From: Sinohyriopsis cumingii
Lineage: Eukaryota; Mollusca; Bivalvia; Unionida; Unionidae
Direction: 5' to 3'
Length of the DNA stretch: 64,000 nucleotides
Assembly (NCBI GenBank): GCA_028554795.2
Contig: CM068841.1
Coordinates: 28,575,721-28,639,720 of the forward strand
Position 1 is the stretch's first letter, and each line of letters begins with the position of its first letter. Of this stretch, positions 8,340 to 62,369 are shown piece by piece. The translations under genes were made by a program, and so were the position numbers. The notes under the pieces were generated by a model. That model had not been told where the DNA came from. It worked only from the letters and a program-made list of their open reading frames with translations, and did no database searches.

Positions 8340-8690
8340 GTTTTATATCACTCTTGAGTGATTCGGACAATCCTATCCCTATTAAAATTTTGAGGGACAC
8401 AGGAGCTTCTGAGTCTTTTATTGTCAGGTATTTTGCCTTTCTCTGAGAAGTCTTCTTCTAGTGAGAGTGTTCTTATTCAGGGAGTAGATTGCGCTTTTCT
8501 TAATGTTTCTCTCCAATGTGTAAAGTTGTCATCAGACTTAGTCTCAGGACCCATGACAGTTGGCCCAGTGTCTATTTTACCCAATGAGGGCATTCATTTA
8601 TTACTAGGCAATGACTTAGCTGGAGACAAGGTTGTGGTTAATCCACTTGTAACTGACAAGCCTTGCTTGGATCAGAAATTTGATCCAATT
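8340..8690 (+). mobile_element. Aspartic protease part of the Gmr1-type fossil
   Basis: Contains the retroelement protease signature DTGAS and a downstream hydrophobic LLLGNDLAG segment usual for the end of the protease domain. It follows gag and precedes integrase. Degraded. Confidence 0.7.
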
Positions 8691-8929
8691 GAAAAAGAAT
8701 TCCCTAATTTATTCCCAGCTTGTGCAGTTACCAGAGCTATGGCAAAGTATTCTCTCGAGAATGATGCTGATAAGGAAAGTATTCCTTTAGTTGACACATG
8801 TATTGGTCCGGCTTTTGATGAGGTCACTTTCACTCTTTGTTTGGATCAATCAGAAGGTATTGATCACAGTGATCCTCTTTTAATGACTCATTCTCTTTAT
8901 TTTAATCAGGGTGACAAACGACAATCACT

Positions 8930-9660: not shown

Positions 9661-9779
9661 CTCTCTTGCTCATTCTTCAAATTTTTCTTCAGTTTAGATA
9701 ATACGGTCCTTACAAAGTTAAAAAGAAAATGAACAAGTTAAATTATAATATTAGTGCTCCTGGGATCTAAATAAATTGC

Positions 9780-15540: not shown

Positions 15541-15674
15541 AACTATGAAAGTGCCAAGTAGGACTGACTAATATGGTAGAACTTAATAATACAAGTAAAC
15601 AGTGATAAAGATAGTAAAACAGACTGCAACAACATTTGGTCAAGGGAATGAAACTTAAATGTTATCTACATTAC

Positions 15675-16141
15675 CAGCACTCCAACTCCTTGACCGGTAA
15701 TCCATCATTACTTGTTGGTGACTTTCTAATGCAACAGCCTCTACCATGAAGCGATGGTGTTCCTCATATACTCCAGAAAATCTGCCACTGAAATCATACC
15801 CTCCATTTGTTGTTCCAGGAGACGGGACATGTGAGGAATTAGAAAATGTCTGTGGTCCAGTATTGGAATTTTTACTTGAATTTATACTTTGATGTATGTT
15901 ATCCATGTTCCTGGCTAGTGAAGAGAAATCAGTATCAATTGTTGATCTGAGATCAGGTTCGAATTCAAATCTATTACTCTTAGATGTCATTCTGTGTCGT
16001 GGTTGTGGATTTTTGTCATGACAACTGAAAAGATCACCTGAATCTGGGTCAATATCCTGATGTCTGTTTCCACAGAAATCAAAGTCACTCTCTTCTGAAG
16101 ATCTATTCCTCACCGAGTTTCTGATAAGTGATGGCATGACA
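15675..16141 (-). CDS. SCAP: SCAP exon H: low-complexity insert of the WD domain
   Basis: A 467-nt exon starting with one base completing a glycine codon, then [18 protein letters not shown]. It is mostly Ser/Asp/Asn-rich, with two anchors shared with human [15 protein letters not shown] (human DLTCLIDTNFS) and [14 protein letters not shown] (human GYDFSCLVQRVYQEE). It ends SRSWSA plus one base at a GTAATG donor, just before the expected SIWSLEL blade. The acceptor is TATTTCAG. The donor is a weaker match than the others, so the 3' end is the least certain border. No following WD exon was recognised in 1-15674. Confidence 0.9.
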
Positions 16142-19100: not shown

Positions 19101-22100
19101 TCTTCCATTCAACCATGAAATATTCAGCTGACTGTCATGGTGGTCCGAATGAGTGCTTTCTTGAGATCATAATTCCCATTAAAGCATGAATGAATACTTT
19201 TTCCAGTGACAAGATTATATAGTCTTCTACTTGGCTTCATGTCACATTTTCTAAACAAACAAACCTATTACCTAATGGAAAATAACCTTCTAGAAACATT
19301 TTTATTTTCACAAAATAAAATGCTAGCTATAATTAGAAAGCCTGTTGTTAAAATTCTAATACATAACCTGGGCTATGTCAGGTAGGGGAATTCCAATAAC
19401 CTATACCCAGACCCAAGTAAACATGTTTACTTCTAAATGATCCTGATATTAAACCCATACACAGAGAGAATATTTCAGCTATGTATTAGCAGTTTACATA
19501 ATAAAAACAATAAATAAAACAACTAACAAATAATGCAGATTAAATATGCATAACACTGTATTCTTAATTAAGTAATAAATGAATGATAACCTTTATCTTG
19601 ATAACTTGTGAGTGATGGGGCCCTTTAACAGTGACCATGGTGTAAGTGAGGGTGCAATATAGCAAGAGTGACTAAAACTATGGTTGACAATTGAGTGGAA
19701 AAGGGGGATGCTGTGCTAGCAGCTTTTGTTTGTACATGAAAAATGAAATCTCCATTGTCCTATACAACTCACTGTCTACTGATTTATATATTTTTTATGG
19801 ATATTAGATCTGAAATAGTTAAAATCAATAAATTGATCTGCATAATTAGAAACTTTTGATGTGTTTATTTGCTTCAGCTTATCCTATTTACCCAATGACA
19901 TCCCCATGCTTAATGATAAGCCACCACCAACCCATCAGCCTACTCCCATTTTTGCAAATTTCTGCAAATATCTACTAAAGACCTTCAATCTGACTAAGCT
20001 CTAACTTGCTCCAAGCAACAAGATCATGTATTCAGCATGATAGAGAACAAGATTATAATCAGACTGAATAGGTCTATTACAATTTTAAAATATGTATCTG
20101 GATGGCCCCCTGGGAAAATACTGTAAATGTATGACTGTGACTCACCCAACTCTATTTATACACTTGAGGCATTCTCCAGTAGCAGAGTCCCAGATTCGTA
20201 GCTGACCACCAAGACAACAGCTCACAATCATGTTCCCATATACAGCAATACACTCTACATCCTGTAACATAAACATAAGGAATTACATGGCACTACTGAA
20301 AAAAGTAGAAAAAATGTTTACTGCAGCAATTTAACAGTTTTTTTAAATTGAAATATTTCAAAACTGTATCCGATGAAGTATTTCCTTTGTTGCAGTTCTT
20401 ATCATTTTAAATATTGCCAGGCCTTCTCATCCAATCAAATTTAAATATTGCCAGGCCTTCTCATCCAATCAAATTTAAATATTGCCAGGCCTTCTCATCC
20501 AATCAAATTTAAATATATATCTGATTTATTTTGCCATAGATCAGGCCCTCTGCTAAGCTGTTATACATTTTGTCGGTAGATCCAGTAAGTCAGGAATGTA
20601 TCTGAGCTATCTTGATAAAAATGTACTTGAAATCCATATTTGAAAGGACATGTGATCGGCTGAATGGACATAATGACATACTAGTGTTGAACAAAAGTTA
20701 CTGTCTTATGTTGGTGTAGGCCTGCATGCAAGTTTTTTGTGGTCACCCACACGCGACCTAAAAGAGAGTACCCAGAAATCTGCCATGATTCAGTGTCATG
20801 TACATGTAGTTGTTATTCAATAACTACTGGATACTTTCATTGCACAAGCAATTAATGGGAATACAACATAAGCAATTAACAATGTATACCAAATAACCTC
20901 AACACTTTAACATACATACCTGAGCTAGCTTCTAGTAATCATGGAAGTAAATTAGTTTTAAAGTAGTACAGTATGTCTAATGACATGAGGTAACATTTAA
21001 TTGGTTTGTCACTAGCTGTGCAAAGCAAATGGAGACAATAATTCATTGTACTGTCCTGAATGCTAGAAGACAGCCTAGACACAAACTCATGCTTGTCTTT
21101 TATGTACTTATCAGTTTAAATATTTTATTTCAAACCAATCAGAATAAATGCACATCTTTTGGATACAAGATACCCATGAAGTGATTGATGTTCGACTAAA
21201 TAACAAAGATTTCCAGGAAATCATGATGAGTCCGTTTCTTCCTTCATTTTATTCTTATTAAAGTCTGAGTATTGAAACCATCTCTGATTGCTGTCCAGAG
21301 ACTCCAACATACCAAATTTTATTAAGAGAACAAGATATCTTTAAATGCAATGCAAAATTCTTTGTCAATAAGTTTGACTTGAACCTGATATCAAGCAGAG
21401 TAGATCGATGAACTTGTCTCAATGTCAAAATATACTACAAGTTAAAATTTGTTAAGTCTATAAGTACCATTTGTGGGGAATAAAATGGAGTTCTTGAAAT
21501 GATATCCTTCAGGGTATTCTTCTAATATATCAACAAAATGGATTTGATAAAAAAAAACATCATTCATTCTTTTTTGCGTTATGACAACAACAGCTAAAAA
21601 TCTCAAGACCATGGACTATAAAATTATTGTCAGTGTGCAAGTTACCAACTTGTTCACTGGAATGTAAAAAAAATTGTTTGGTCAAAATTCACTAGCACAT
21701 GTACAAGTCACTGTGTTCATAAGCTCAATGAAGGGAAAAATGCAAGTAATGACCTATAAATTTTCCTGAAAGTCAATTAGGTTTGATTTTAAAACTTCAC
21801 AAAAATGTGGATATGTTAAAGGTTAATTAAACACCATTTTCATTTGGACCTAGCTCCACACTTGTACAGTGTTATAGTGGACAAAAATCCTACTGATATG
21901 ACCATCTGTTCAGAAGTAGCCATGTAAAAATTTTCAGGAGGGCCACCAAGGCAGCTATTTTGAAGGTTAGAACATTTCTGCAAAGTCACATTAACATCAT
22001 TTTCATTCAGAACCAGCTACAAAAAGTGAAAAATGTTTTAGTGTAATCCCAATGTCAACATGGCCATACCTTGAAGAGAAGCGCTATGTCAACATGGCCA

Positions 22101-25100
22101 TACCTTGAAGAGAAGTGGCATGTCAACATGGCCATACCTTGAAGAGAAGCGCTATGTCAACATGGCCATACCTTGAAGAGAAGCGCTATGTCAACATGGC
22201 CATACCTTGAAAAAAATGGTATGTCAACATGGCCATACCCTGAAGAGAAGCGATATGTCATGTCAACATGGCCATACCTTGAAGAGAAGCAGTATGTCAA
22301 CATGGCCATACCTTGCAGAGAAGCGCTATGTCAACATGGCCATACCTTGAAAAAAATGGTATGTCAACATGGCCATACCCTGAAGAGAAGCGATATGTCA
22401 TGTCAACATGGCCATACCTTGAAGAGAAGCAGTATGTCAACATGGCCATACCTTGCAGAGAAGCGCTATGTCAACATGGCCATACCTTGAAAAAAATGGT
22501 ATGTCAACATGGCCATACCCTGAAGAGAAGCGGCATGTCAACATGGCCATTCCTTGAAGAGAAGTGGTATGTCAACATGGCCATACCTTGAAGAGAAGCG
22601 GTATGTCAACATGGTCATACCATGAAGAGAAGCGATATGTCAACATGGCCATACCATGAAGAGAAGCGATATGTCAACATGGCCATACCTTGAAGAGAAG
22701 TGGTATGTCAACATGGCCATACCTTGAAGAGAAGTGGTATGTCAACATGGCCATTCCTTGAAGAGAAGTGGTATGTCAACATGGCCATACCTTGAAGAGA
22801 AGCGGTATGTCAACATGGCCATACCATGAAGAGAAGCGATATGTCAACATGGCTATACCATGAAGAGAAGCGGTATGTCAACATGGCCATACCTTGAAGA
22901 GAAGCGGTATGTCAACATGGCCATACCTTGAAGAGAAGCAGTATGTCAACATGGCCATACCTTGAAGAGAAGCAGTATGTCAACATGGCCATACCTTGAA
23001 GAGAAGCGGTATGACAACATGGCCATACCTTGAAGAGAAGCAGTATGTCAACATGGCCATACCTTGAAGAGAAGCGGTATGTCAACATACCATGTCAACA
23101 TGGCCATACCTTGAAAAGAAGCAGTATGTCAACACGGCCATACCTTGAAGAGAAGTAGCATGTCAACATGGCAATACCTTGACGAGAAGCGGTATGTCAA
23201 CATGGCCATACCTTGAAGAGAAGCAGTATGTCAAGATGGCCATACCTTGAAGAGAAGCAGTATGTCAACATGGCCATACCTTGAAGAGAAGTGGTATGTC
23301 AACATGGCCATACCTTGAAGAGAATCGGTATGTCAACATGGCCATACCTTGAAGAGAAGTGGTATGTCAACATGGCCATACCATGAAGAGAAGCGATATG
23401 TCAACAAGGCCATACCATGAAGAGAAGCGGTATGTCAACATGGCCATACCTTGAAGAGAAGCAGTATGTCAACATGGCCATACCCTGAAGAGAAGCGGCA
23501 TGTCAACATGGCCATACCTTGAAGAGAAGCAGTATGTCAACATGGCCATACCTTGCAGAGAAGCGCTATGTCAACATGGCCATACCTTGAAGAGAAGTGG
23601 TATGTCAACATGGCCATTCCTTGAAGAGAAGTGGTATGTCAACATGGCCATACCTTGGAGAGAAGCAGTATGTCAACATGGCCATACCATGAAGAGAAGC
23701 GATATGTCAACATGGCCATACCATGAAGAGAAGCGGTATGTCAACATGGCCATACCTTGAAGAGAAGCAGTATGTCAACATGGCCATACCTTGAAGAGAA
23801 GCGGTATGCCAACATGGCCATACCATGAAGAGAAGCAGTATGTCAACATGGCCATACCTTGAAGAGAAGCAGTATGTCAACATGGCCATACCTTGAAGAG
23901 AAGCGGTATGTCAACATGGCCATATCTTGAAGAGAAGCAGTATGTCAACATGGCCATACCTTGAAGAGAAGCGGTATGTCAACATGGCCATACCATGAAG
24001 AGAAGCAGTATGTCAACATGGCCATACCTTGAAGAGAAGCAGTATGTCAACATGGCCACACCTTGAAAAGAAGCAGTATGTCAACATGGCCATACCTTGA
24101 AGAGAAGTAGCATGTCAACATGGCCATACCTTGACGAGAAGCGGTATGTCAACATGGCCATACCTTGAAGAGAAGCAGTATGTCAAGATGGTCATACCTT
24201 GAAGAGAAGCAGTATGTCAACATGGCCATACCTTGAAGAGAAGTGGTATGTCAACATGGCCATACCTTGAAGAGAATCGGTATGTCAACATGGCCATACC
24301 TTGAAAAGAAGTGGTATGTCAACATGGCCATACCATGAAGAGAAGCGATATGTCAACAAGGCCATACCATGAAGAGAAGCGGTATGTCAACATGGCCATA
24401 CCTTGAAGAGAAGCAGTATGTCAACATGGCCATACCCTAAAGAGAAGCGGCATGTCAACATGGCCATACCTTGAAGAGAAGCAGTATGTCAACATGGCCA
24501 TACCTTGCAGAGAAGCGCTATGTCAACATGGCCATACCTTGAAGAGAAGTGGTATGTCAACATGGCCATTCCTTGAAGAGAAGTGGTATGTCAACATGGC
24601 CATACCTTGGAGAGAAGCAGTATGTCAACATGGCCATACCATGAAGAGAAGCGATATGTCAACATGGCCATACCATGAAGAGAAGCGGTATGTCAACATG
24701 GCCATACCTTGAAGAGAAGCAGTATGTCAACATGGCCATACCTTGAAGAGAAGCGGTATGCCAACATGGCCATACCATGAAGAGAAGCAGTATGTCAACA
24801 TGGCCATACCTTGAAGAGAAGCAGTATGTCAACATGGCCATACCTTGAAGAGAAGCGGTATGTCAACATGGCCATATCTTGAAGAGAAGCAGTATGTCAA
24901 CATGGCCATACCTTGAAGAGAAGCGGTATGTCAACATGGCCATACCATGAAGAGAAGCAGTATGTCAACATGGCCATACCTTGAAGAGAAGCAGTATGTC
25001 AACATGGCCACACCTTGAAAAGAAGCAGTATGTCAACATGGCCATACCTTGAAGAGAAGTAGCATGTCAACATGGCCATACCTTGATGAGAAGCGGTATG

Positions 25101-28100
25101 TCAACATGGCCATACCTTGAAGAGAAGCAGTATGTCAAGATGGCCATACCTTGAAGAGAAGCAGTATGTCAACATGGCCATACCATGAAGAGAAGCGATA
25201 TGTCAAGATGGCCATACCATGAAGAGAAGCGGTATGTCAACATGGCCATACCTTGAAGAGAAGTGGTATGTCAACATGGCCATACCATGAAGAGAAACAG
25301 TATGTCAACATGGCCATACCTTGAAGAGAAACAGTATGTCAACATGGCCATACCTTGAAGAGAAGCAGTATGTCAACATGGCCATACCTTGAAGAGAAGT
25401 AGTATGTCAACATGGCCATACCTTGAAGAGAAGCGGTATGTCAACATGGCCATACCTTGAAGAGAGGCAGTATGTCAACATGGCCATACCTTGAAGAGAA
25501 GCGGTATGTCAACATGGCCATACCATGAAGAGAAGCAGCATGTCAACATGGCCATACCTTGAAGAGAAGTGGTATGTCAACATGGCCATATCGTGAAGAG
25601 AAGCAGTATGTCAACATGGCCATAGCTTGAAGAGAAGCAGTATGTCAACATGGCCATAGCTTGAAGAGAAGCAGTAATAACAAAACTGTTTAGATGGCCA
25701 CAACAGCCATCATGTCTGCAGTTGGCATCATCTTTACTTAACTCCAGATTAAATTAGGATGGTTTTCTAAACTCCTTCACAAAAGAGCAGATATGTTAGT
25801 GGTCAGATGTACAGAGATCCAATTCAATACTGCAAGACACATTTTAGTGAAATGAAAGATGCCTACCATGATGGCTATACTATAGCTCTAATTGGTGCCA
25901 TTTTCATTCAGAACCAATTATTTATCATAAGAAGTCTTTTAATGAAAGCCCAGTGTAGTTTGACTTTTCGTTCAGAAGAAGTAGCAACAAGATTTTAATG
26001 ATGTCCACCTTGGCAACCATGTTACTGATCCGATCAGCACCATCTTTATTAATGATCAACTACATGGCTTAAGAAGTAAAAACAAACAACAGTGTTTTAG
26101 TGACTATTCACTCAGGAATATCAGCAATGGCAGGATTTTCATGATGGCCTCTGTAACTGCTTGCTGGATGTCCCAGGGGAACCATTTTCAGCTAGGTCCA
26201 ACTAGACATGAGAAGGAATGAGTATGTAAATTTGCATGGCAATCCTCTTAGTAGTTCAGGAGAAGTAGTGATAACAAATGGATGATGGACGCTAGATGGG
26301 AGGTGAAAGGTCATCACATAACCTCCTCTGATCTAGAACTGAATATTTAGCAGGGATATTTGAATTTTCTGAATATAGGGGAGATTCATCAAAAAATATA
26401 TGCAGGACTTGAACATATAATGCATTATTTTGTGCATTTTATTGATTTTTCAGCACAATGTTTTTTTAGAATAAAAGGGTAAATTCCCCAGCAGTGCATC
26501 CTGAAACAAACTCTGGCAGACTTCCATAGAATTATTCTGTATTTACCATATAATAGCTCATACAATTCAAACACTTTTTCTCCTAAATAATGTTGTTCAC
26601 AGAATGATAATACATTTAAAGACAAGTAATGTAATTTAAAATCCAGTTTTATCAGTGCCATCAATCAGATGCATTGTGAATTTTGCAGTACACACTATTA
26701 TGGTAGAACATTCATCACACTGAATATAATATTTATTATTTGATGTTGCTGGTTTAAGCTGTCATAAAAAATAAAAAAAATAATGGAAAAAATGCTTATC
26801 ATTTTTAAAAATTCCTATTTTCAGACATACAAGATGTCTGAATGAAGGCAGGAAAAATTAACTGTTTCCCCCCTCAAATTTTAAAATGTTCCAACTTTTG
26901 AAAATTTTACTGTAGAAAGGTTTGTGAATGCAAGGAGCAACTAGATCTATATAACTGGCTATCTGGAAAGGATATTCTATCTTCTATGTAAAAATATTTG
27001 GCTGGATGGTCTTTCATCACATTAGATAATACATTTGTTATGAAATTTTGAACATACTAATTTCCAAATATGAAACTATGTATGTTGGTAATTAACTCAC
27101 CTGTACATGGCCTTTCAGAACAAGTGGTACGGACTCTTTAATCTGTTTGATGTAGTTGTTCACTTTACTCCTGCGTTTCGGTTTATTCCAGGAAGCCCTC
27201 CATTTATCATACCTTCTTGAGCACATGCATCGATACAGCATCAGCATGAAATATGTGATACAAATAACACTAAGCACACCAAGTATTAGTGTAATTACAA
27301 ATTCCTTCTGAGACTTGGGATAAAAGTGCTGCAATTTCTTAGGGTCATAAAGGTCATGCAGTTGTTGCTGCAAGTCATTCTCTGTTTCCACAGTAATGTC
27401 CTCAGCAGCCTCCACTTTAACTGATGAAACTGGCACCTTTATCCTTGTCATGCTATCATCCATAGAACTATCAAGTGTTCCTGATGACTGCTGTAGATTT
27501 ATAGCTTCATCAGGAGGGATAACAACTGACAAGTGAATTGACGGCAGCATAGTTATATAACTGTAAGAAAAACAATTTCCATTTCATCTGTTTTTTCCAT
27601 TAGCTGTTTTTAGTTTGGCATTTGGCATTTGGTACAGTTACTTGAGCTCTCCATGTCAATGAGATCTATATTAAAATGCATCAACTTGATTTCTATCAAT
27701 AGGACTCGTATGTGGCCATGAGAGACAGTTTTTGCAAGTCATACAAATCTAATATAATGGCTTTATATACATTCCAACAATGAATACCTTTCTTACAAGC
27801 AATACATCTGGAAGAGCCTTTATTCATTCTTTGATTTTGTTCTTGCATTAAAGTACATTTCTCTGGACTGAATTTTTTTTTAATCATTACTAGGATAGGG
27901 CAAAATGTTAGGAAAATAGGGAGATGGGGTATAGAGTGGACAAAATTACAAGTAAATTAAAACAGATATTTTACATAAACATCTGAGTCAAATAATGTAA
28001 CAACAAAAGAAATACACCAATATACCTAACTTATTTGATGCTCATCATGCAACATATAAAAAGTGCTCAAATGCTCCATGTTTTTTTCCATGGTGGACAG

Positions 28101-43100: not shown

Positions 43101-46100
43101 AGTACAATATATCCATCCGACAAAACGAGTTGATATTTTCCCCATACAAATGCAGTCACTTTTTTATTATATGCTCATTTTCTTATTCTACCTGAGGCTT
43201 AATTATATAAACAAAAATACAGTACAAGAAACAACGTAACTGAATTTATGTCGTATTCCAAACAAAACATACAAGCGCAGACTCATCAGTCCACTACAAA
43301 AGTTTTATTAACGCGCACATAACTCCGATCAGAAAAATTGGAACTTAGTCGCGCAATAGACATAAGTAGTATAGTGGGACACCCTAGGGACTAGGGGACT
43401 TCCATGTTAAAAAGGGTATATCCACTCTGGGAACTATAAAATTTAACATAGGAGAAAATATATCCACTCTGGGGACTATGTAATTTAACATGGGAGAAAA
43501 AAAATATCCATTCTAGGGACAAGGGGAATTTAACATGGGAATAGAGTGTGGGTCTATCTAGGGACAAGGGGAAATGGAACAGGGTCGGGACCCTATTTTA
43601 ATATGGTCCAGACCTGATGGGTCTATGAGTAGTGAATAGGGATACCCTAGGGACAATGGGACTTGCCATTAAAAACACCCTTGGGTCAATCTGGGGACAA
43701 TGTAAATTTAACATTGCTGGGTCACTCTAGGGACAATGAGAATTTAACATGGGGAATAGATCGTGGGACTGTCTAGGGACAGTGGGAAATTTAACATGGG
43801 GAATAGATCGTGGGACTGTCTAGGGACAATGGGAAATTTAACATTACGGAAACCCCTGGGGGGATATAGCCTCAAGGGAATTAACATATGGAAATTAAAC
43901 ATGGTGGGTCTGTATAGCGTCAAGGGAATTTAACATGGTGGGACTGTCTAGGGACAATGATAGTTGAGGGTCAAACACAACAGAGACATACATACACTAG
44001 TACAAGCGTGAGATTTATATATAAAGCATTACCAAGACCTGAAATCTTGCTGGGGTGTTCAAAAATTTGCATAATTATAATGATGCTATAAATAGCTATA
44101 ATCAAGGAAATGCTCAACGACAAAATGGATGTGACTAAAAGTAACGCTAAAATGACGAAATTGTCCCAGAATTTAAAGGAAAATAAACATATCCCCGAAA
44201 ATTAAGTTACAATGGTTTAGACTAAAATGGATAAAATTAGTAACTACTTACAATATCAATTTGTGTGACGATCGTGGATAAACACCCATGTATCTATTTA
44301 TAGCTCCATATTGTACTCGAAACTAGGGGATAAATGGCAACAGTGTTGCAAGTGGCTGACCTGAATACACGCTACTGTAGGTAGGTAGGTAGAATGTATT
44401 TGACAGGGATAAAGGGAGTTTTATAGGGACAATCAGAGACCAATACACACACATACACACACACACACGCACGCACACAACAGAGGGAAGAAGAAAAAAC
44501 AAACCCAAAATATACTATTCACACAGGGAACAGGAAAAAAACCAACAAATATACTATCCAGACGTTCTTACACTAACACACACACATAACTTTCGAAAGA
44601 AAACAGCGTTTTGGTCTACTTAGAATTGAAATTTAGATTCACATTGTGAATGAATGCGCATTGCAATAACTTTTCCATTTAGTCTCAAATGGTTAGAGTT
44701 TGGTATTTTTGTTGATTCTGCGACGTTTCGTGATAATGACTGGATTTATCTGTGTCCATTCTATATTAAGTACATTCGATTTCAGCAGCGAGAGAGCAGC
44801 TCGTTGACATCTGCAAGTGTGTTTCTGTACTGTCATTGAATGTTTGAAATCATAATGTGGGGAAAATATGAAGTCTTTCAATTGCAACTATCAAAAAGAT
44901 GCTATGGAACATGATGTTTATTTTATTTTGAGTGTATTAGGGAACGTGTAATTGCACTTGGAATATAGTCGAAATTACAGTACAAGTTTGAAAAGTGTAA
45001 TCAAGCTTGAGAACCCATGACATGGCTCATGTAATTCGGATTTGCAGAATTAAGAAAGTACATTTTGAGGAAATTCAGGATGTAAAACTGTAAGTATATT
45101 TTTGGTCATTTTTTTTACCAGCTAAAGAAGACAGTTTATGCCTTGTCACTTGCATGTTATTTGTAGAGACCCAGACCTGTCTTTCGTCTATCTCTAGCCT
45201 AAATCCGAAAGATTGTATCAAATAAGTTAACACAGAATGTAGCAAATCAGCTGGTATGTTGTTGTTGTTGTTGTAGGGTTTAACGCCATTTTTCAGCATA
45301 CGATAGGTCATACATAGCGGCCAGTATTAATGGTGGAGGAAGAACCCGGGAAATCCCCAGAAAGAAACACCGACCCTCATGAAGTTACTGGCAAGCTTTC
45401 TCACATACCCACATTAGCCGAATCCGAGACTCGAACCCACGCAGACAGAGGAGAGATGGCAGTGATCCGTAACAGACAGCGCTTTAGACCTACCGTATGC
45501 AAGATATTTTAGTCTTCACCAGACATGAATAATTATTATTAGTTTGCCTGATTATTCATTAAAATTAGAATTCCTCTGAAACAGCATCTGCAAAAACAGG
45601 CACTCGTTTTTATTAGTAAAAACGATAAAGACTGTTGAGAATACTCGCTCTCCGTCTAAAAATTAGCACAAAGTGACATGGTAACTTCGTAATTTGCATT
45701 CTATGCTAAGCATCTTAATCCAGCAGGATGTTCATCATATACTATAATTCCAAACGTATTCCACGTGTATAATAAAGTACTTAACTCATGATTTTATAAC
45801 CACTATTACGCAAATTCACTATGTTGATCTACTTTGCTCGATTTGAAAGTTACACTACCGGTGTGTTGCACTGTCAAATGTTACATTTAATTTTCATTGG
45901 TTATTACTTAATCCGGTCCTGGTTAAACAATAAAAATAAATCAGAACTTAATGTAGCTTATTTCCCGCGCAACAAACAGGAAGTAATGGCAAAGCCATAA
46001 ATAAACTTCGCACCAAAGTTGTTAATTGATATGCAAAGTAGTTAAACAGAGATACTGTCAGGGTTAGTCCGAGTTTCCTCTGACCCTTGCCACCCCATTT

Positions 46101-49100
46101 TTTTGATATTTGGACATTTATGTTGGGTGTAGGGTCAGAGCGCATTCCCTATCGAAAAGTTGGAATTCTCCCACATCATTTGGTGTCGGCATGGGGTAGC
46201 CGCTTTCTAGCCGGCCCAGCAAACTTGAACGACCTTTCATCGAGATATACCTGCATGAAATCGTTAGGAATATGATTTATTTTCTCAGAAATTGCGATCA
46301 TAGCACTGGTCATGTCTTTAATCCGCTGATACACGAGATAAAAGTACATCGTTGCTAACATTTTACCTGGATCTGGCCATTTGTATTCCTAGTCACGTGA
46401 CTACACAACTCTCGCAGCCTACATCTGAATGATATTAGAGGTCATTCAGTCACGTGATATCAACAACTTACCATTTCTAGTATTGTTGTAGGAAAACAAA
46501 TCGAACATATAAATAAAAGTCATGTAATTTTTATAGAAAAATGAAAAAACATAAACTTCTCAAAATATTTATTGTGAAAACAGCGACGGAAATCTGTAAA
46601 TGTTGCAGAAATGTGAAGAAAACCAGATTCACTACGAAGAGCACGTGTCAATGTGGTAGTCACGTGACACCAACAAAAAAAGCATCGCTGACACGTGTTC
46701 GGTACTTCTTGAAAATGGTTTTCTCCACCCTGCTGCGATACCGACAGGTTTCTGTTCGTTGTTCTCAGAATAAATATGTTGAGAATTAAGTGTGCATTAT
46801 ATTTATTGACAAACATTTAGTGATTTGAGAATTAAGTGTGCATTATATTTATTGACAAACATTAAGTGACTTCTATATAATATGTCCAAATTCTACGTAC
46901 AACAACTTTTGAAATTTATTGTCAATATCACGTGACTAGATGACCTCTGATGTCACTGAGATGTAGGTTCCGAGATTTGTATAGTCATGTGACTCGGAAT
47001 GCAAATGACGAGATCCAGGTCAAATTTCTGCAACGACGAACTTTCGTCTCGTTTGTCAGTGGATTAAAGACATGACGAATGCTATGCTCATGATTTTTGA
47101 GAAAATAAATCATATTCCTATTGATTTCATGCAGGTGTATCTCGATGAAAAGTCGTTCAAGTGTGCTGGGTCGGCTAGAAAGCGGCTACCCCATGCCGAC
47201 ACCAAATGATGTCGGAGAATTCCAACCTTTCGATAGGGAATGCGCTCTGACCCTACACCCCAACATAAATGTCCAAATATCAAAAATGGGGTGGCATGGG
47301 TCAGAGGAAACTCGGACTATGTCAGGGTGTGCGATTACATGAATTGTGCAAAATTTGTACGAATTCGCATACATGGAGAACAGTGATGCACGAGAAATCC
47401 CGAAAATGTGTTGAAAGCCATGCATATGAATATGTGCTCGGCGAAGTATACAAATTTTATTTAACCGTTCTTGTCGCGACATGAGTTTTTAGGGTAGGCA
47501 ACTTTCCACATCTGGATTCTTCAAACAAGTCACGAATGGTTGTTAAACTTAATTTTATCAACATATGGTGCCCAGGAATAACCATTATTATGGCGTAGTT
47601 TGAACTTTCCATGAAGGCAGTTTAACAAATGAGTGTTTAAAATACGGGCTACCCGGAAAACCCAAAATGTCTGATTCCTGGTGTGGTTCATTACTATTTT
47701 GTTCGGTAAACACTGGCTGATGCCAGCGATGATGACAATATTTTTTTAAAGTTATTAAGTATGTCAGATTACTGGGGCTGGGAAATTGTTAACACATTAA
47801 CTCCTGGAGGTTTTTGTCGTTTACCTTAACTTCCAGGTGATTTTCCAAATACTTAATGCCTAGTTGTGTTAGAAACATCGTTTTTCATTGGCTATCTGGC
47901 TCGCGCATGAGCAGAAGGGTAAAAGCTGGAGTTCTTTTCTTTTTTAAACCACTCTTTATTCCAAATGCCCATCTTATCCTACTTTTTGCAAAGGTTCATC
48001 TGTCTGTTTGCCATTTATACCGGTCTGCCTTAGATCTAGACCAAAAAGTCTAAAATCCGGACACAAAATCGAATTCTGACCACGGGCGAATTTTGCGTGG
48101 AAAAAAAATCAGGTCCAAAAAATGAGGTTTTTCCCTCTGTATTTTGTAGTGCAATCAGAACTTCCAGATTATTTGGTATCACTGTAGAGCTACATCTGTC
48201 TACCTTTCTATAATACCACCCACTTTAGTGTATCATACATGGCCTTGACGCTACAAATCTCGGCAGTAGGCCACTACCTCCTGCCATGTAAACTCGTCAC
48301 CAGGGTTTAATTTGTTAATGGAGATACCAGTGAGTGATTTTGAGCCTGGAAATGGTGTTAAATACGAGTCAGATGTACAAGTTCAATTGACAAAAATAGA
48401 CGGCATGACGGTCATTTTTCCTTTCGGCGGTATTTCAAAATTAAACGTAGAAAGGGCAGACTACCGAGCCTAATTATAATACAGTTAATTTAAAAGTATA
48501 ATGCAATTTTCTTCTTTATTTTCATTCAATTTAGCTCAGCTGATCATATGCTACAAAATCATATATCCATATTAGGGGTAAGATACACTGAATAAATAAG
48601 TGGTAAAAAATGAAATTAAGCAATAAATATATTTATTTGAACACTCTAAAAGAAGACCTTGGCTTTGAATGACTAAAAACTCTAATATATCATTATGAAC
48701 AGATAAGAAATCTGGCACAGTAGTCAGTAAACCACCGAGTCTACAAAGTTTACGTTAGTGAAAACTCCTATTTTGGACCAGATGTATCAAAAATTTTAAT
48801 ATATGTGAGCTGTGGAAAAACTGTACATAACAACCATAAAGATCAATTTCCCAACATATTCAAGCTGCAACGCTAGCTATGTATATTACCCGTTCAGAAG
48901 GAGCATAGAACAATATTCATACACAGATAAGGAATAGAATTTCCTCAGAAATAATTAACATATTAATATTTATACAACTATACATGACACCTTTCAAAGA
49001 TGTTGATTTCAGTAGAGCTCTACGAATGTGGAGCTGGAAGAAAGAGAGATATTGAAGTATTGGGTAAATGCTGATCTATGGTCGTTTCTTCCTCTCCCTC

Positions 49101-59468: not shown

Positions 59469-62369
59469 TATAAAATAAACAACACCAACACATAGAATGT
59501 GTGACCGGTTTCGCTTTAATGCTTCATCAGACTGAATTCAAAACCTATTTTTTTAAATAGAAATTACCCTATTGACATCATTAATACTGCTTTCCAAAAG
59601 GTATCCTCTCTTACACAGCTTGAATCTTTACAATATAAAATCAAAAATAGAAATGAAGATATCATTCCTTTTGTTATTGAATATAATCCAAGTTTGCCTA
59701 ATATAGGTAAGATTATCAATAAATATTGGGATTTATTAAACTTATCATATAAAGCAAGTGTTAAATCGCTACACGAAAGCAAACCCAAACTTGCTTATAA
59801 AAGGACTAAAAATCTTAAAGATTTCCTAACTAATTCCAAATTAGAAAAACCATCATATAAAATAGGATCATCAACTAAATGTAATAGACCTAGATGTTCA
59901 CGCTGTTCATTTATTAATGAAAATACTTCTTTCAATAGTAATAATACGAAAGAAACTTTTAATATGCGTTGTGACATTAATTGTGCAACATCAAATGTTA
60001 TTTATTTGATAACGTGCAAAAAATGTGGCATCCAATATGTTGGACAAACCAGTCAACAAATATCTAAACGTATGAACCAACATAGATCAGATATAAAAAA
60101 TTATATCGATCAATCATTTTCATCTCATGTTGCCGCACATTTTAACAAAAATTCCCATACATTGCAAGATTTCTCCTTCCAACCTATTGTTAAAGCTGAT
60201 TCTGAAATGGAACGTCTACTAAAGGAAACCTATTGGATTCACTGTCTTAATACGGTATATCCAAATGGTCTAAATTCAAAACACTATATGACATTTAGTA
60301 ATTTTTTATTATTATTTTTTTTTTTTTTTCTGAATTATGTCCCCTTTTACAATTAGATATGAATATTTCATATTATTTTACTTTGCAGAAAATCTTGATT
60401 GATAAAAGTATAATCTAATAACATAAAAATAAGTTTACTAATTCTTTAAAAATGAAATTAAATTTGTAATTAATTACTAATATAATATGATTAATTATTT
60501 ATAAAATACTTGATAGTAACCGTAATGCACACCATATTTTTATTATATTTTTATTAAATAAATTGAGTTCTGATAACCACTGTAACAGCTATAAAGATTA
60601 TACTAGTATATGTGTTGTTTACATTTATCTTTGTAATTTTTTTTTTTTTTTTTTTGTAATTTATTTTCTTTTCATCTAATAAGCGTGTATTATACATAAT
60701 ACTAATATTACTAAAACTGTTTATCTCTATTTGTTAATAAATTGTATATATATATATGATATGTGTGATCTCTTATTTGAATTATGCCCTCTATTTCCCA
60801 GTATTCATATCTGCATATAACACTGGATTCAAGCAACACTAAATTTTCAAGTAGAAAATTTCCTTAGTTATTTTGGCCATATCACTTTAAAAGAGAATAA
60901 TACAAACTTCATTGTAACGAATTTTAACTGAGTAACCAGATTACAATATTGTAAAAATCCTTGATCAACTACCCTTAATCAAGATTTTTTTACTTTCTAA
61001 AGCATTTGAAACAATCGCTGTACCATGAACACGAGGGCAAATGCACGTGTGTCTTCAGATCATTCTGTTCGTCCTAATTTCTTTGTTGTGGATAAAACAT
61101 TACCATAACTGTTCATATATAACACACTAAAATGCATAACAGACATGGCTCCATTATAGTCGGCATATGAACTAAACCCTTCTTTCCAACTGAATCTACA
61201 CAGGCCTTAGAAGGAAGGTTTTGTAATATAACCACTCACTTTATATAGCTTCATTACAAAACTAAATTGATATGATTGCATATTTATGGTTTTATTATGT
61301 GTCTACATACTTGTAGCATTTGTAAGCATTGGTTAAATAGTATCTGCTTTGCTGCCTTTTTCGGTATGTTCACAAATATGAGTCAAGTCGTGAATTCCAC
61401 AAGATAACATTGTCCCATATGTTTCTGACCAACATAATTGCATTTTAAAGCTAAATCTTCAATAACACAATACCTAGGCTTTGTTTTTCACGAATTGTAT
61501 ATTTTTCTGAATATATTTTCCCAATGGTTTACAAAAACAGACAATCTAATAAACTGGTACTTCCCAGACAGAGCGATTTACTTACAGTTACAAACTAATT
61601 TTATGACAAAATTGTATACAAGAGGCAGTTCAAACAACCAGATCACCACTTCTGTTCTTAAAGCACAAATTCCTATTTACATGCTATTGTTAAAGTTTTG
61701 AAACACAAGTGTATATATTTTTTCATCAAAGGATAACATGTAGAAATCAGGCAGTGCTAGCTTCTAACTTGCTCGGGAAAGTGTTAATAGTCAATCAGGT
61801 ATCAAAACACATGCCTGTGAATGTGCAAGAGTTTCTTTGTCAGTGTAACTGATATCAACACTAGTTTCTTGATGGCTTGATGAATACATTTCACTACAAC
61901 ACAACACTAGAACTAACTTGCTATGGCAAGGGACCATCTAAAAAACTAGTCAGTCAATGTACTTCTAAAAAAATCTCAGGGCAAAGTTGTTTTTACTTTC
62001 CTAACAGAAGAAGGTAAAGGTTACATTTTTTAGTCACCCACTTTGCTTGGTAGTGTGACCCCTGCATTCCATTTAAAACATTGGAGGCAGTATTTGTCTC
62101 AGTTTGAAAAGATTATTGAGAATAAGAAATGCAACAGATGGAATTTTTTTTAGCTAAAGCATATAGATAATTCCACATATCTCTCTTTTCTAGTAATATC
62201 CTATCTTTTAAAAGGTTAATATTTAAACTTCAGAATAAGAATAAAATACAGCTTACCATGAGCTATTCTCTCTCTGACATCTAGATGAAGTGGGGTGGAT
62301 ACAACAGACTTTGTTAGAATCAAAATATTCTCAAGGCCAATCAAAACAACCAGGTATGGAAATATTTCC
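15675..62369 (-). CDS. SCAP: SCAP, SREBP cleavage-activating protein (partial, 8 exons, both ends outside window)
   Basis: SCAP is a polytopic ER membrane protein that binds SREBP through its cytosolic WD domain and carries it in COPII vesicles to the Golgi when sterol is low; sterol holds it on INSIG through the sterol-sensing domain. Eight minus-strand exons join in frame: 62369-62257, 56732-56638, 56048-55950, 33328-32999, 30276-29948, 27560-27101, 20261-20146 and 16141-15675. All have AG acceptors and GT donors. Peptides recall vertebrate SCAP in order: TM4-TM6 of the sterol-sensing domain, MELSDL (MELADL in human), TM7, lumenal loop with YNIS, TM8, VPLVLKGH, the first WD blade, and the GYDFS-containing insert. 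The order rules out the other sterol-sensing proteins (HMGCR, NPC1, Patched). The 5' exons (TM1, loop 1, TM2-3) and promoter lie beyond the right edge; the last WD blades and stop were not found. The gene spans over 46 kb here for about 669 codons. Confidence 0.95.
16142..20145 (-). other. SCAP: SCAP intron G-H
   Basis: A 4.0-kb intron. It holds a fragment near 16270-16320 (GTAGCAACAAGATTTTAAT) that recurs at 25985, and the 17-bp array at 17846-18075. Nothing else was recognised. Confidence 0.75.
17846..18075. repeat. 17-bp AT-rich minisatellite, degenerate
   Basis: Consecutive 17-mers such as AGTATCTCATAAGTATT, AGTATCTCATTAATATT, GATATCCCATGAATATT and GGTATTCAATGAATATT. Confidence 0.8.
20146..20261 (-). 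CDS. SCAP: SCAP exon G: first WD blade
   Basis: A 116-nt exon reading [19 protein letters not shown] then [19 protein letters not shown], matching human DIECLASDGMLLVSCCLAG and HVCVWDAQTGDCLTRIPR. It is the last strand group of a WD40 blade (xRIWD). The cytosolic propeller binds the C-terminal domain of SREBP. Acceptor ATGTTACAG, donor GG|GTGAGT, leaving two bases for the next exon. Confidence 0.95.
20408..20513. repeat. 35-bp tandem triplication
   Basis: Three near-identical units of TAAATATTGCCAGGCCTTCT followed by CATCCAATCAAATTT. Confidence 0.92.
22051..25675. repeat. 34-bp minisatellite, ~107 copies, with 952-bp higher-order repeat
   Basis: The unit is TATGTCAACATGGCCATACC followed by TTGAAGAGAAGCGG, with variants at a few fixed places (CAGT/CGGT/TGGT/CGAT, CCTTG/CCATG). 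From about 23100 the pattern of variants repeats at exactly 952 bp (28 units): for example CCTTGAAAAG at 23109, 24061 and 25013. Two full higher-order copies and part of a third are present. Near 22.2-22.5 kb a ~140-bp period is repeated about three times. The unit lacks stops in most frames, so long open frames occur, but it is not a multiple of three and sits inside a SCAP intron. Confidence 0.97.
27101..27560 (-). CDS. SCAP: SCAP exon F: end of lumenal loop 7, TM8, linker to WD domain
   Basis: A 460-nt exon. It begins [17 protein letters not shown] (human RYISLLPVIPVTL), runs through an acidic lumenal stretch, and then has a strongly hydrophobic span ([18 protein letters not shown]) equivalent to TM8. 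A basic Cys/Arg-rich cytosolic stretch follows ([12 protein letters not shown]), and the exon ends [12 protein letters not shown], like human EIVPLVLRGH, where the WD propeller starts. Acceptor TTCTTACAG, donor CAG|GTGAGT, phase 0 at the 3' end. Confidence 0.95.
28682..28937 (+). mobile_element. tRNA-derived SINE, family 1, copy 4
   Basis: The best-preserved copy: GGGGCCCCAAGTGGCCGAGT head, GGGTTCAAGTCTCAG B-box region, GTGAGAAAGCTTGCCAGTAG body, ATTAAACCCTAC then ACA repeats. The target-site duplication is ATGAACATGTATT (28669-28681) and ATGAACATGCATT (28938-28950). It is inserted in a copy of the ACAGGTAAGTATGAACATG repeat also seen at 29.6-29.8 kb. Confidence 0.95.
29630..29845. repeat. 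Degenerate tandem repeat, ~35-55 bp units
   Basis: Units contain ATACAGCTATACAGGTAAGT and ATGAACAGG with variable spacing; a related single unit flanks the SINE at 28.64 kb. Unit length is irregular. Confidence 0.7.
29948..30276 (-). CDS. SCAP: SCAP exon E: TM7 and ER lumenal loop 7
   Basis: A 329-nt exon starting [15 protein letters not shown], equivalent to human AGTVVWIGILVYTD in TM7. About 80 polar residues rich in Gln, Ser and acidic residues follow. The exon then ends [19 protein letters not shown] plus IYG, equivalent to human [20 protein letters not shown]. The YNIS sequon corresponds to a known N-glycosylated position of human SCAP, and the tyrosine before it is in the stretch known to contact lumenal loop 1. 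It ends with two bases (CG) of an arginine codon completed by the next exon. Acceptor TTCCTACAG, donor GTGAGT. Confidence 0.95.
30277..32998 (-). other. SCAP: SCAP intron D-E
   Basis: A 2.7-kb intron containing a solo LTR at 30828-31283. No other feature was recognised. Confidence 0.8.
30828..31283 (+). mobile_element. Solo LTR fossil, related to Gmr1-type LTRs
   Basis: Starts TGTGTCAAGTATTTCAT and ends CACTCTTCTCTGTTACTT ... TTGTAACA, with GGGAAATAAATTATTTGG near the end. Closest in the window to the copy at 42.5 kb; more distantly similar to the LTRs at 6.0 and 11.4 kb. No internal region is present. Confidence 0.7.
32999..33328 (-). CDS. SCAP: SCAP exon D: cytosolic loop 6 and entry to TM7
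   Basis: A 330-nt, 110-codon, phase-0 exon. It opens LSDLHRKN, completing the COPII sorting motif as MELSDL instead of human MELADL. A Ser/Thr/Gly-rich middle with no clear counterpart follows, then [15 protein letters not shown], matching human VVYFLARTRLAQRLIM just before TM7. The acceptor is TATCCTTTCAG and the donor ATG|GTAGGT. Loop 6 is the cytosolic loop that exposes the sorting signal in low sterol. Confidence 0.95.
36000..36235. repeat. Degenerate ~50-bp tandem repeat
   Basis: Variants of GGATTTATGACTTGATGGTA followed by TCAAATTTAGAA-type sequence recur about every 50 bp; two related units are at 34200-34270. Confidence 0.7.
36855..36998. repeat. 71-bp tandem duplication
   Basis: Two nearly identical units of GTAGTGTGAATATATAACAA ... 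CTTAGCCATGAACCAGATTA ... TTATGAAA. Confidence 0.9.
37080..38870. repeat. Decayed ~150-190-bp tandem repeat
   Basis: Recurrent blocks TCTGAGATCTTGATGA, CCAAGTTTGATCAAA, GGCATCCAGAGTGGTA-like, and CCAATCAGATAC ... CACCTCATTA recur at irregular 150-190-bp spacing. Strongly diverged; family not recognised. Confidence 0.65.
39420..40385. repeat. 45-bp minisatellite, interrupted
   Basis: Unit TTACAAGGTCTTATATAAGG followed by TTAATAAATGCCAAGGCAATCTTTG, about 7 copies before and 10 after an insertion at 39733-39922. The unit is a multiple of three, giving 15-residue repeat frames ([15 protein letters not shown]) that are not taken as genes. Confidence 0.93.
39733..39922 (+). mobile_element. Short non-LTR-type insertion in the 45-bp array
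   Basis: About 190 bp of sequence foreign to the array, ending GTAGTCTGAAATAAAAAATT then TCTTATTCTTATT, like the 3' tail of a LINE or LINE-dependent SINE. TTATTAC stands at both borders (39726-39732 and 39916-39922), as expected for a target-site duplication. Family not identified. Confidence 0.6.
41470..41765. repeat. Imperfect inverted repeat, MITE-like
   Basis: The left arm (AAAAAAGC ... GGGGAAAAAATCATTGCCTC then AGACTACCCC) is matched in reverse complement by the right arm (GGGGGTAATCTGAGG ... ATGATTTTTTCCCCCC ... GCTTTTTTT). AACTCGGATCT stands outside both arms at about 41475 and 41731. Confidence 0.6.
42093..42416 (-). mobile_element. tRNA-derived SINE, family 2
   Basis: On the minus strand the head reads TGGCCTAGTGGTTAGAGCGG (A box) and GGTTCGAACCCGGG (B box), followed by a body with TGCTAGACGC-type sequence and a (CA)n-like tail. 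It is unrelated in body and tail to family 1. Flanks GGTCAAGTAGGGA (42080-42092) and GGTCAAGTAGAGA (42417-42429) are a 13-bp target-site duplication with one mismatch. Confidence 0.9.
42501..42939 (+). mobile_element. Solo LTR fossil, sister of the copy at 30.8 kb
   Basis: Starts TGTTGTGTCTAGTGTTTCAT and ends near GTTGTAATA, with GGGAAATATATTATTTCTTG near the end. Block order matches 30828-31283. No internal region. Confidence 0.65.
43022..45258 (+). repeat. ~1-kb hairpin-bearing repeat, copy 1, split by a 1.2-kb insertion
   Basis: Homologous in inverted orientation to 57645-58625. It starts with an imperfect hairpin (GCATTTCTATGGGAAAATAT ... CGGATGGA ... TCCATCCG ... ATATTTTCCCCATACAAATG, 43038-43152), continues through CGCACATAACTC to 43368, is interrupted, and resumes at about 44583 (ACTTTCGAAAGAAAA). 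It runs on to AATCAGCTGGTATG at 45258, where a SINE is inserted. No coding signature was recognised. Confidence 0.75.
43369..44582. repeat. 1.2-kb insertion with a ~47-bp degenerate minisatellite
   Basis: Absent from the other copy of the host repeat. Its left half (43376-43970) is a tandem array of GTCTAGGGACAATGGGAAAT with TTTAACATGGGGAATAGATC, period 47 bp where best kept. Its right half has a TAGG run and a CA-rich stretch. ACATAA lies at both borders (about 43363-43368 and 44584-44589) and may be a short target-site duplication. Confidence 0.65.
45259..45490 (-). mobile_element. tRNA-derived SINE, family 1, copy 5 (5'-truncated)
   Basis: Reverse copy with a TTG-repeat tail, GGGTTTAACGCCATTTTTCA and a B box (read on the minus strand GGGTTCGAGTCTCGG). 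It ends inside the A box (GCGCTTTAGACC), so the 5' end is missing. It sits exactly at the 3' limit of the ~1-kb repeat copy. Confidence 0.9.
46064..46464. repeat. Left arm of a ~400-bp inverted repeat
   Basis: Pairs with 46921-47320 from AGTCCGAGTTTCCTCTGACC at its outer end to GTCACGTGATAT at its inner end, with scattered mismatches. Read outward (minus strand) it has a 61-codon frame from 46361 to 46176 containing [17 protein letters not shown] and ending KRLPHADTK. No domain was recognised. Confidence 0.92.
46394..46934. promoter_or_regulatory. Cluster of six CACGTG E-boxes
   Basis: CACGTG occurs at 46394, 46451, 46642, 46661, 46692 and 46929. Two of these (46392-46401 and 46659-46668) are the full palindrome GTCACGTGAC, the consensus bound by MiT/TFE and related bHLH-zip factors. 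I counted about five CACGTG in the rest of the window. That it acts as an enhancer or promoter is inference. Confidence 0.5.
46465..46920. other. Loop of the inverted repeat
   Basis: About 455 bp between the arms. It has open frames on both strands over 46520-46816 (the plus-strand one contains [12 protein letters not shown] and CQCGSH), neither assigned to a family. A ~50-bp tandem duplication (TTGAGAATTAAGTGTGCATT ... TTGACAAACATT) lies at about 46779-46872. Confidence 0.6.
46921..47320. repeat. Right arm of the ~400-bp inverted repeat
   Basis: Reverse complement of the left arm. Read on the plus strand it carries the parallel frame ([17 protein letters not shown] ... KRLPHADTK then stop) at about 47000-47209, so both arms keep the same peptide and stop, facing outward. 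Confidence 0.92.
48318..48473 (+). CDS. Small open frame, 51 codons, unrecognised
   Basis: ATG to TAA, reading [19 protein letters not shown] and ending NVERADYRA, with a mixed polar/hydrophobic composition unlike the AT-rich junk frames nearby. It lies in a relatively GC-richer stretch (about 47.9-48.5 kb) on the strand opposite SCAP. No domain, promoter or splice site could be tied to it. It may be an exon, a small gene or a transposon scrap. Confidence 0.25.
   Translation: MEIPVSDFEPGNGVKYESDVQVQLTKIDGMTVIFPFGGISKLNVERADYRA
49305..49550. repeat. Dispersed ~250-bp repeat, copy 2
   Basis: Matches 4385-4640 block by block (ATATGTCTATCTGTAATCTG, GGAAATACAACC, TGTGTATCATTTCACCCC). Family unknown. 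Confidence 0.6.
53795..54145. repeat. ~83-100-bp tandem repeat, ~4 copies
   Basis: Units contain TTTCACTGTCAAACTTAACA, TCTGTAATAAATCAATATTC, and GTCTAGCAGCCAGGTCATAT followed by AATGTTATA. Confidence 0.85.
54245..54455 (-). mobile_element. tRNA-derived SINE, family 1, copy 6 (old)
   Basis: Degraded reverse copy: GTTTAACGCCATTTTTCAGT, GATAGGCTATA, GAAGAACCATCGAGCCACGA and GAGGTGAGATGCCAGTGATC are recognisable. The tail and the A box are decayed. Confidence 0.8.
55950..56048 (-). CDS. SCAP: SCAP exon C: sterol-sensing domain TM6 and start of COPII motif
   Basis: A 99-nt, 33-codon, phase-0 exon. It reads [18 protein letters not shown] followed by [15 protein letters not shown]. The aspartates equivalent to human D428 (SDFF) and D443 (DIRRM), both known to matter for INSIG/sterol control, are present. 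The exon stops after ME, so the Sec24-binding hexapeptide is split across a 22.6-kb intron and completed by LSDL in the next exon. Donor GTAGGG, acceptor CTCTCAACAG. Confidence 0.95.
56049..56637 (-). other. SCAP: SCAP intron B-C
   Basis: A 589-bp intron, AT-rich, with no recognised feature. Confidence 0.85.
56638..56732 (-). CDS. SCAP: SCAP exon B: sterol-sensing domain, start of TM5
   Basis: This 95-nt exon completes a glycine codon and reads [18 protein letters not shown] then [13 protein letters not shown], matching human [32 protein letters not shown]-type sequence in the fifth span. The acceptor is CTATTACAG and the donor CAG|GTAAAT, ending in phase 0. The first ~25 bases of the exon plus its acceptor recur 2.1 kb upstream in the intron at 58813-58880, an apparent partial duplication (see findings). 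Confidence 0.95.
57128..57403 (+). pseudogene. BED-type zinc-finger fragment, hAT/ZBED-like
   Basis: The frame starts ATG at 57128 ([20 protein letters not shown]) and continues [19 protein letters not shown] then [10 protein letters not shown]. The Cys-x2-Cys, Gly-Asn-x-Ser and His-His placement resembles a BED finger (CxxC ... GNTSNLxxHL ... H), the DNA-binding head of hAT transposases and ZBED proteins. It stops after 91 codons, the last part being low-quality, and no transposase core follows. It is a likely dead scrap of a hAT transposon on the strand opposite SCAP; other zinc fingers remain possible. Confidence 0.5.
57645..58625 (-). repeat. ~1-kb hairpin-bearing repeat, copy 2 (uninterrupted)
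   Basis: Reverse-complement homologue of 43022-45258, lacking the 1.2-kb insertion and the SINE. The hairpin is at 58490-58610 (GCATTTGTATGGGAAAATAT ... ATATTTTCCCATAAAAATGC). Both ends fade into unrelated sequence at about 57645 and 58625. Nature unknown; no terminal repeats or coding region were recognised. Confidence 0.75.
58813..58880 (-). pseudogene. SCAP: Partial duplicate of the SCAP exon B acceptor and exon start
   Basis: Read on the minus strand, ATTGATGGCCTTTTCTATTA then CAG and about 25 exon-like bases (TTAAGCGAAGAGGGATAGTC) match the intron end and start of exon B at 56757-56710. Homology stops after GTCAATCA. The polypyrimidine tract and AG are kept, so it is a decoy acceptor 2.1 kb upstream of the real one. 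Confidence 0.75.
59391..59464. repeat. (AT)n microsatellite, ~74 bp
   Basis: An uninterrupted AT run directly preceding the hammerhead/Penelope fragment. Confidence 0.97.
59491..59536 (-). ncRNA. Hammerhead ribozyme motif of Penelope type
   Basis: On the minus strand: CUGAUGA (core), A, GC-AUUAAA-GC (stem-loop II), GAAA (core), then ACCGGU with C as the cleavage base (GUC). Stem III is only the self-complementary ACCGGU without a loop, as in minimal hammerheads known from Penelope-like elements, which may need a dimer. Stem I can form two inner pairs (GU/AC) and four outer pairs (GAAU/AUUC) around an internal loop. It lies between the AT run and the Penelope coding fragment. Cleavage activity is inference. 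Confidence 0.65.
59520..60356 (+). mobile_element. Penelope-like element fragment: RT end plus GIY-YIG endonuclease
   Basis: An open frame from about 59520 to the stop at 60354-60356. It enters inside the RT C-terminus ([31 protein letters not shown]). A Cys-rich linker follows (CNRPRCSRC), then the GIY-YIG endonuclease in its Penelope form ([17 protein letters not shown]), RMNQHRSDI, and the conserved glutamate region [15 protein letters not shown] ending VYPNGLNSK. These domains cut DNA and prime reverse transcription in Penelope-like retroelements. The element is 5'-truncated, with most of RT missing, and begins right beside the hammerhead motif, the usual look of a truncated copy joined to its pseudo-LTR. 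The remaining frame has no stop, so it is fairly young. It lies in a SCAP intron, opposite strand. Confidence 0.9.
62257..62369 (-). CDS. SCAP: SCAP exon A: sterol-sensing domain, TM4
   Basis: The 113-nt exon starts with one base finishing the previous codon, then reads [18 protein letters not shown] and continues [19 protein letters not shown] before one leftover base. This matches human SCAP around [19 protein letters not shown], the fourth membrane span of the sterol-sensing domain. The acceptor is TTTACTTCAG and the donor GTAAG. It is the most upstream SCAP exon recognised in the window. The preceding exons, which would carry TM1-TM3 and the sterol-resistance residues known at human Y298 and L315, are not seen between here and the right edge. 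Confidence 0.95.

Follow-up and report, generated by a model that had tools for sequence, protein, structure and literature searches.

An E-box-rich inverted repeat in the SCAP gene of the mussel Sinohyriopsis cumingii as a copy of a foldback transposon family

Introduction

Why should six copies of the E-box CACGTG be packed into a large inverted repeat in the midst of a sterol-sensing-pathway gene? The question was raised by a 64,000-nucleotide stretch of the genome of the mussel Sinohyriopsis cumingii (contig CM068841.1, positions 28,575,721 to 28,639,720), hereafter called the window, to whose numbering positions refer unless a consensus or another locus is named. An initial annotation of the window had offered three readings of the repeat, namely, a bidirectional regulatory unit, a foldback transposon, and a duplicated small gene pair. 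The second reading was upheld, and the other two were not supported. In all likelihood the inverted repeat is not a regulatory switch but an ordinary mobile element, and with a probability of roughly 0.9, positions 46065 to 47319 are one copy of a high-copy, noncoding foldback cut-and-paste transposon family with long terminal inverted repeats (TIRs) that duplicates 9 bp of its target.

Structure of the element

Self-comparison resolved the 1255-bp element (46065 to 47319) into a left arm on the plus strand (46065 to 46466), an inverted right arm on the minus strand (46919 to 47319), and a weakly self-complementary loop of ~452 bp (46467 to 46918), in agreement with the arms of ~400 bp described in the initial annotation. 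The core arms (46125 to 46466 and 46919 to 47260) are 87% complementary over 342 nt, and the outer blocks are 97% (46065 to 46102 and 47282 to 47319) and 100% (46100 to 46127 and 47259 to 47286) complementary. The outermost 22 bases at both ends, read inward, are TAGTCCGAGTTTCCTCTGACCC, and the end sequences of the family are TAGTCCGAG...CTCGGACTA. A perfect 9-bp direct repeat, TGTCAGGGT, which had escaped the initial annotation, borders the element on either side; the left (46056 to 46064) and right (47320 to 47328) copies of this target-site duplication (TSD) are identical at 9/9 positions.

A 1210-bp consensus, which also served for the E-boxes, was built from 34 aligned copies shorter than 1300 bp, the longer copies L017, L024, L035, and L074 being left out. 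The window copy is longer than the consensus because a 46-bp loop unit, single in the consensus, is directly duplicated at 46779 to 46870. The loop matches the opposite strand of other copies at 65 to 72% and contains further internal inverted pairs. When the outer 480 bp at the two consensus ends are paired, complementary bases stand at 431 of 478 positions. A small subterminal dyad, GCCGACACCATTTGGTGTCGGC in the consensus and imperfect in the window copy, lies at 46169 to 46190, with its right-arm counterpart at 47195 to 47216. Long inverted arms make up most of the element, as in foldback or long-TIR elements. Internal tandem repeats in the TIRs are a trait of classic FB elements; none were listed in the TIRs of the window element by Tandem Repeats Finder, whose sole entry within the element was the two-copy 46-bp loop repeat, and the element is therefore a palindrome-type foldback and not a classic FB element. 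An Rfam scan of the window gave no match at the gathering threshold.

Copy number, target sites, and age

The multicopy nature of the unit, which the initial annotation had proposed to check, was confirmed by searches of the host assembly (2.9 Gb, 1138 contigs), where the window lies on contig C18. The exact 22-bp TIR end was found 730 times (362 forward and 368 reverse), against 0 for the reversed control. For a left-arm query, 40 of the 4131 first-look candidates were scored, and these yielded 41 matches, comprising the window copy at 100%, 39 full-length or nearly full-length matches at 92 to 96%, and one partial match at 89%; for a loop query, 40 were scored among 1359 candidates. Counts of this kind are lower bounds.

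A total of 38 two-ended elements were parsed from 47 loci, a sample biased to close copies in that 37 loci comprised the window copy and others chosen for their resemblance to it, whereas 10 were reached through pairs of exact ends; no element was parsed at nine loci, where an end was absent or mutated, the sequence was a duplicate, or two half elements were present. The TSD was identical at 9/9 positions in 25 of the 38 elements and matched at 7/9 or more in 34. Two of the elements counted, L017 and L024, have a common TSD and look like a single insertion that was later duplicated. Comparison of 31 TSDs showed no strong consensus, the most uneven position being position 3, with T in 15. The insertion at L014 (TSD, 7/9) lies in a high-copy repeat that resembles a tRNA-related SINE; when joined without the insert, its flanks align to all 40 scored places (3133 first-look candidates) at 91 to 96%.

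The highest pairwise identity between copies was 99.75%, and two half elements ~8.4 kb apart with differing flanks are 99.7% identical across 661 bp; since some copies are >99% alike, the family has been active recently. Short derivatives of ~107 to 169 bp consist only of element ends. Both 107-bp derivatives at L053 and L097 have a 9-bp TSD, in each case ATAGTACAT, perhaps reflecting one event, and the derivative at L045 has a TSD matching at 7/9. With many copies, among them recent ones, a near-palindromic structure, fixed ends, a 9-bp duplication of fixed length, and no transposase found, the family has the properties of a miniature inverted-repeat transposable element (MITE).

Three further observations concern individual copies. 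The 107-bp derivative at L097 (4308 to 4414) is nested in another inverted-repeat element with ends near CCACAGGGGCTCGTATCGTT. The 9-bp target TGTCAGGGT at window positions 46056 to 46064 also occurs at L020, with different outer flanks, a coincidence with a roughly estimated chance of ~0.3% among 38 TSDs. Finally, a tandem array at G000:C2:18390791-18419526, part of which is covered by L095 and for which 16 units were listed, has a unit of ~1914 bp with ~860 bp of the element inside; it is a foldback-derived satellite.

Superfamily and search for an autonomous partner

TSDs of 8 to 10 bp and TIRs of >100 bp are typical of Mutator-like elements (MULEs) (PMC5225508), 9-bp TSDs fit the Tm1 family (PMC3169594), and MULEs have been reported in bivalves (PMC10294476). 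The mussel family has both traits, with TIRs of >100 bp and identical 9-bp TSDs in the 25 elements noted above. At least 132 MULE matches were found in the host genome (150 scored of 474 candidates); together with the reported bivalve MULEs, they make a source of transposase plausible, none being linked to the ends of the element. Mobilization in trans by a MULE transposase is somewhat favored, an assignment that rests on TSD and TIR length because no autonomous partner was found.

Among the closest parallels are foldback families of other animals. Tm1, a Mutator/Foldback family of root-knot nematodes, likewise has 9-bp TSDs, long TIRs, noncoding MITE-like members, and no clear TSD consensus; it differs in that its TIRs consist largely of 13- to 15-bp tandem repeats and that one known member carries a Phantom-like transposase (PMC3169594). 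Neither feature was found for the mussel family. Muta1 of Aedes aegypti, a MULE classed as a type 2 foldback transposable element, also has an 8- to 9-bp TSD, a long TIR, and many nonautonomous derivatives, whereas its 145-bp TIR carries subterminal tandem repeats and a transposase is encoded (PMC5225508). Tetris of Drosophila virilis is likewise a nonautonomous foldback and a source of satellite arrays, comparable to the one 1914-bp array described above, and differs in having ~220-bp internal tandem repeats in its TIRs (PMC4079207).

Several results weigh against a transposon family driven by a MULE. The TSD match was below 7/9 in 4 of the 38 parsed elements (L069, L073, L074, and L077). No autonomous element with the TIR of the family was found, and inspection by eye of 100 listed ends out of the 730 revealed no exact-end pair 2 to 20 kb apart. 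Ten MULE loci were read (L037 to L044, L096, and L097, with L045 extending L037), and none had the element TIRs around its gene, eight of them (L037 to L044) being read with only 1.5-kb flanks. TIR searches of the viral_contigs and genome_contigs sets gave no match. In addition, 20 solo ends were retrieved from contig C1, and at six of them the family similarity broke off internally; a 6-kb extension of each of the six revealed no second end within 6 substitutions, and at L047 an additional 122-bp piece of the family lay ~3 kb inside.

Two candidates for a linked partner were rejected. Two of the extended solo ends (L050/L089 and L051/L090) lie upstream of Maverick/Polinton-like sequence with a DNA_pol_B_2 domain. 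As a parent, this sequence was set aside since the part common to both loci starts ~1.4 and 2.6 kb inside and since three MULE loci (L039, L041, and L045) contain its minisatellite as well; these grounds argue against a parent without proving the point. Two MULE genes (L045 and L097) have short TIR copies nearby, which were likewise not accepted as linkage, given that the L097 copy has its own 9-bp TSD and sits inside another inverted repeat.

The Maverick/Polinton-like sequences themselves (L089, 513 to 5999, and L090, 1742 to 5999) share 90% identity across 4.3 kb; they match a type B DNA polymerase and contain a frame with a CCHC zinc knuckle. A minisatellite of ~36 to 47 bp (TCTAGGGACAATGGGAAATTTAACATGG type) at window positions 43417 to 43940 recurs in L089 and L090, where it lies at the start of the Polinton-like part, and is the one present in the three MULE loci. 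MULE domain matches recur at a spacing of ~12.4 kb on G000:C12 (68.60 to 68.76 Mb and 77.59 to 77.67 Mb), C478, and C153, as if a MULE-bearing unit had been tandemly amplified.

Open reading frames in the arms

As the initial annotation had described, both arms contain the same outward frame (46176 to 46388 on the minus strand and 47009 to 47209 on the plus strand, stops included), which ends in KRLPHADTK followed by TGA. The stop is not familywide: the consensus has TGG at this codon, so that its frame continues. A small gene, duplicated so that the two copies face outward, might be suspected from the fact that the frame is open over 59 codons in 29 of 34 right-arm and 30 of 34 left-arm copies, and the ratio of replacement to synonymous changes (N/S) across copies, in which changes shared by descent are counted repeatedly, was 2.06 for the right arm, below the expected 3.0. 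The right-arm value taken by itself leans towards coding constraint; the left-arm value, 5.75, leans against it. Between the window arms, 25 of 198 positions of a 66-codon frame differ, distributed 7/11/7 by codon position, and 3 codons have synonymous and 17 have replacement differences, so that the comparison recommended at the outset gave no sign of purifying selection on either frame. Pfam yielded no match above the cut-off (one was listed below it, at an E value of 0.17), and the longest open frame was 138 amino acids among 150 scored of 6647 candidate copies. The copies, moreover, are transposon copies, and a gene pair is extremely improbable.

E-boxes

The window contains 11 CACGTG hexamers, compared with 2.92 expected from whole-window dinucleotide shuffles; as first described, six lie within 541 bp of the element (46394 to 46934) and five elsewhere, and the 10-bp palindrome GTCACGTGAC occurs twice in the element (46392 to 46401 and 46659 to 46668). 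The E-box at 46394 to 46399, inside the first palindrome, reads CACATG in the consensus; its mirror at 46986 to 46991 is CATGTG in both the window copy and the consensus, one CpG transition from CACGTG. The sites at 46451 to 46456 and 46929 to 46934 are mirror partners, those at 46642 to 46647 and 46692 to 46697 are near-mirror partners, and the near-central site (46661 to 46666) lies inside the second palindrome. In the consensus, CACGTG stands at 387, 578, 597, 625, and 819, with 387/819 an exact mirror pair, 578/625 a near-mirror pair, and 597 near the center.

Could the cluster be a working regulatory unit for basic helix-loop-helix-zipper (bHLH-zip) factors of the USF/MITF/TFEB type, carried by the transposon to host genes such as SCAP? 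Each consensus E-box was kept in 27 to 31 of 33 to 34 copies (79 to 91%), compared with averages of 71% over the 53 central-CpG hexamers and 78% over all hexamers; the E-boxes are thus kept slightly above mean hexamer retention in this alignment. In addition, GTCACGTGAC from all sources was counted 3178 times genome-wide, versus 2291 for its reversed form. However, the five E-boxes rank only 4th, 13th, 22nd, 26th, and 32nd among the 53 central-CpG hexamers, and the six sites of the window copy are all common to its closest relative, L009. When the context of the near-central E-box was searched with the hexamer left free, 169 genome matches were found, and CACGTG was present in 38 of 84 listed places (100 listed in contig order and thus nonrandom, less 16 places in the tandem array). 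For a control context around TGCGAT, with 142 genome matches, the hexamer was kept in 74 and changed in 26 of 100 listed in the same nonrandom way, 3 of the 26 being one segmentally duplicated copy on C4. The near-central E-box was lost more often than this neighboring control CpG hexamer, a comparison of one E-box with one control whose contexts may sample copies of different ages; alternatively, older subfamilies may have lacked CACGTG originally. At this site, then, the element shows the many copies with decayed CACGTG that the initial annotation had named as the mark of an ordinary foldback element. The E-boxes are inherited from the family, with no sign of special preservation in the window copy, and a regulatory unit, bidirectional or otherwise, is very unlikely.

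Given their mirror-symmetric placement, the consensus sites could also serve to bind the transposase or a cofactor supplied by the host; the active lineage alone would then retain them, and inserted copies would lose them. In the long-TIR element Galileo, the TIRs contain several transposase sites (PMC3688188). Against this, the end-only derivatives of 107 to 169 bp (L053, L097, and L045) lack E-boxes and carry TSDs, which argues that mobility does not depend on the E-boxes, unless deletion after insertion gave rise to the short forms. This role is doubtful.

For E-boxes inherited with a foldback transposon, as preferred here, the palindrome of the family would already have carried the sites, symmetry doubles their number since they lie within the palindrome, and after insertion they would drift as the rest of the element does.

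Sharing of substitutions between arms

At paired positions, private changes, present in one copy only, were complementary in both arms of the same copy in 8 cases, compared with 1.12 for cross-copy arm pairs, and 0 of 2000 permutations reached 8. The corresponding values were 15 versus 2.42 for changes in at most two copies, 22 versus 3.85 for changes in at most three, and 64 versus 23.58 for all changes, such that rare substitutions were shared within a copy six to seven times as often as across copies. In the window copy, the arm-shared sites are 105/1106 and 112/1099 (consensus numbering), and the change at 112/1099 produces the common TGA stop of the two frames. The pattern suggests arm-to-arm transfer, as judged from the alignment, in a test with few events and nonindependent copies in which two of the eight private cases are at CpG. 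A wider scenario is unlikely: the arms would exchange sequence by hairpin-templated repair or gene conversion and so keep the palindrome intact, its mirrored sites of the GTCACGTGAC type would attract bHLH-zip factors of the host while the lineage is active, and bursts would scatter E-box clusters, here into a sterol-sensing-pathway gene.

SCAP context and significance

Translated matches to a human SCAP query were found on the minus strand at 62368 to 62255, 56733 to 56638, 56051 to 55929, 33076 to 32993, 30285 to 29926, 27283 to 27104, and 20267 to 20145; the N-terminal exons were not matched, and a SCAP beta-propeller profile matched 15655 to 16152 below the cut-off. The element lies inside the 22.9-kb gap between 33076 and 55929, the widest interval separating neighboring SCAP matches detected in the window, and in this sense its reported position in the largest SCAP intron holds. 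For RNA of the element in the SCAP sense, the predicted fold is a long hairpin with an energy of -741.7 kcal/mol, as computed for the native sequence. In the SCAP pre-mRNA, the copy would form this hairpin, which would most likely be spliced out with the intron and have no regulatory role.

Elsewhere in the window, ~106 copies of a 34-bp unit occupy 22052 to 25676, retroelement fragments with integrase zinc-binding and reverse transcriptase domains lie at 8394 to 10888, and an open frame with a GIY-YIG domain spans 59520 to 60353. We take this frame to be, perhaps, part of a Penelope-like element.

The mPing MITE of rice belongs to another superfamily. Like the mussel family, it brings putative cis-elements near genes; it differs in that, in the part of the report considered, CACGTG is in the host promoter and not in mPing (PMC3782648).

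The element family is well defined and of a known kind. Should a larger sample bear out that arms share substitutions, these copies would be a natural data set for how foldback arms stay alike. For the SCAP locus, a striking cluster of transcription factor sites in a lipid-pathway gene is inherited transposon sequence, and its recognition as such guards against a false regulatory claim.

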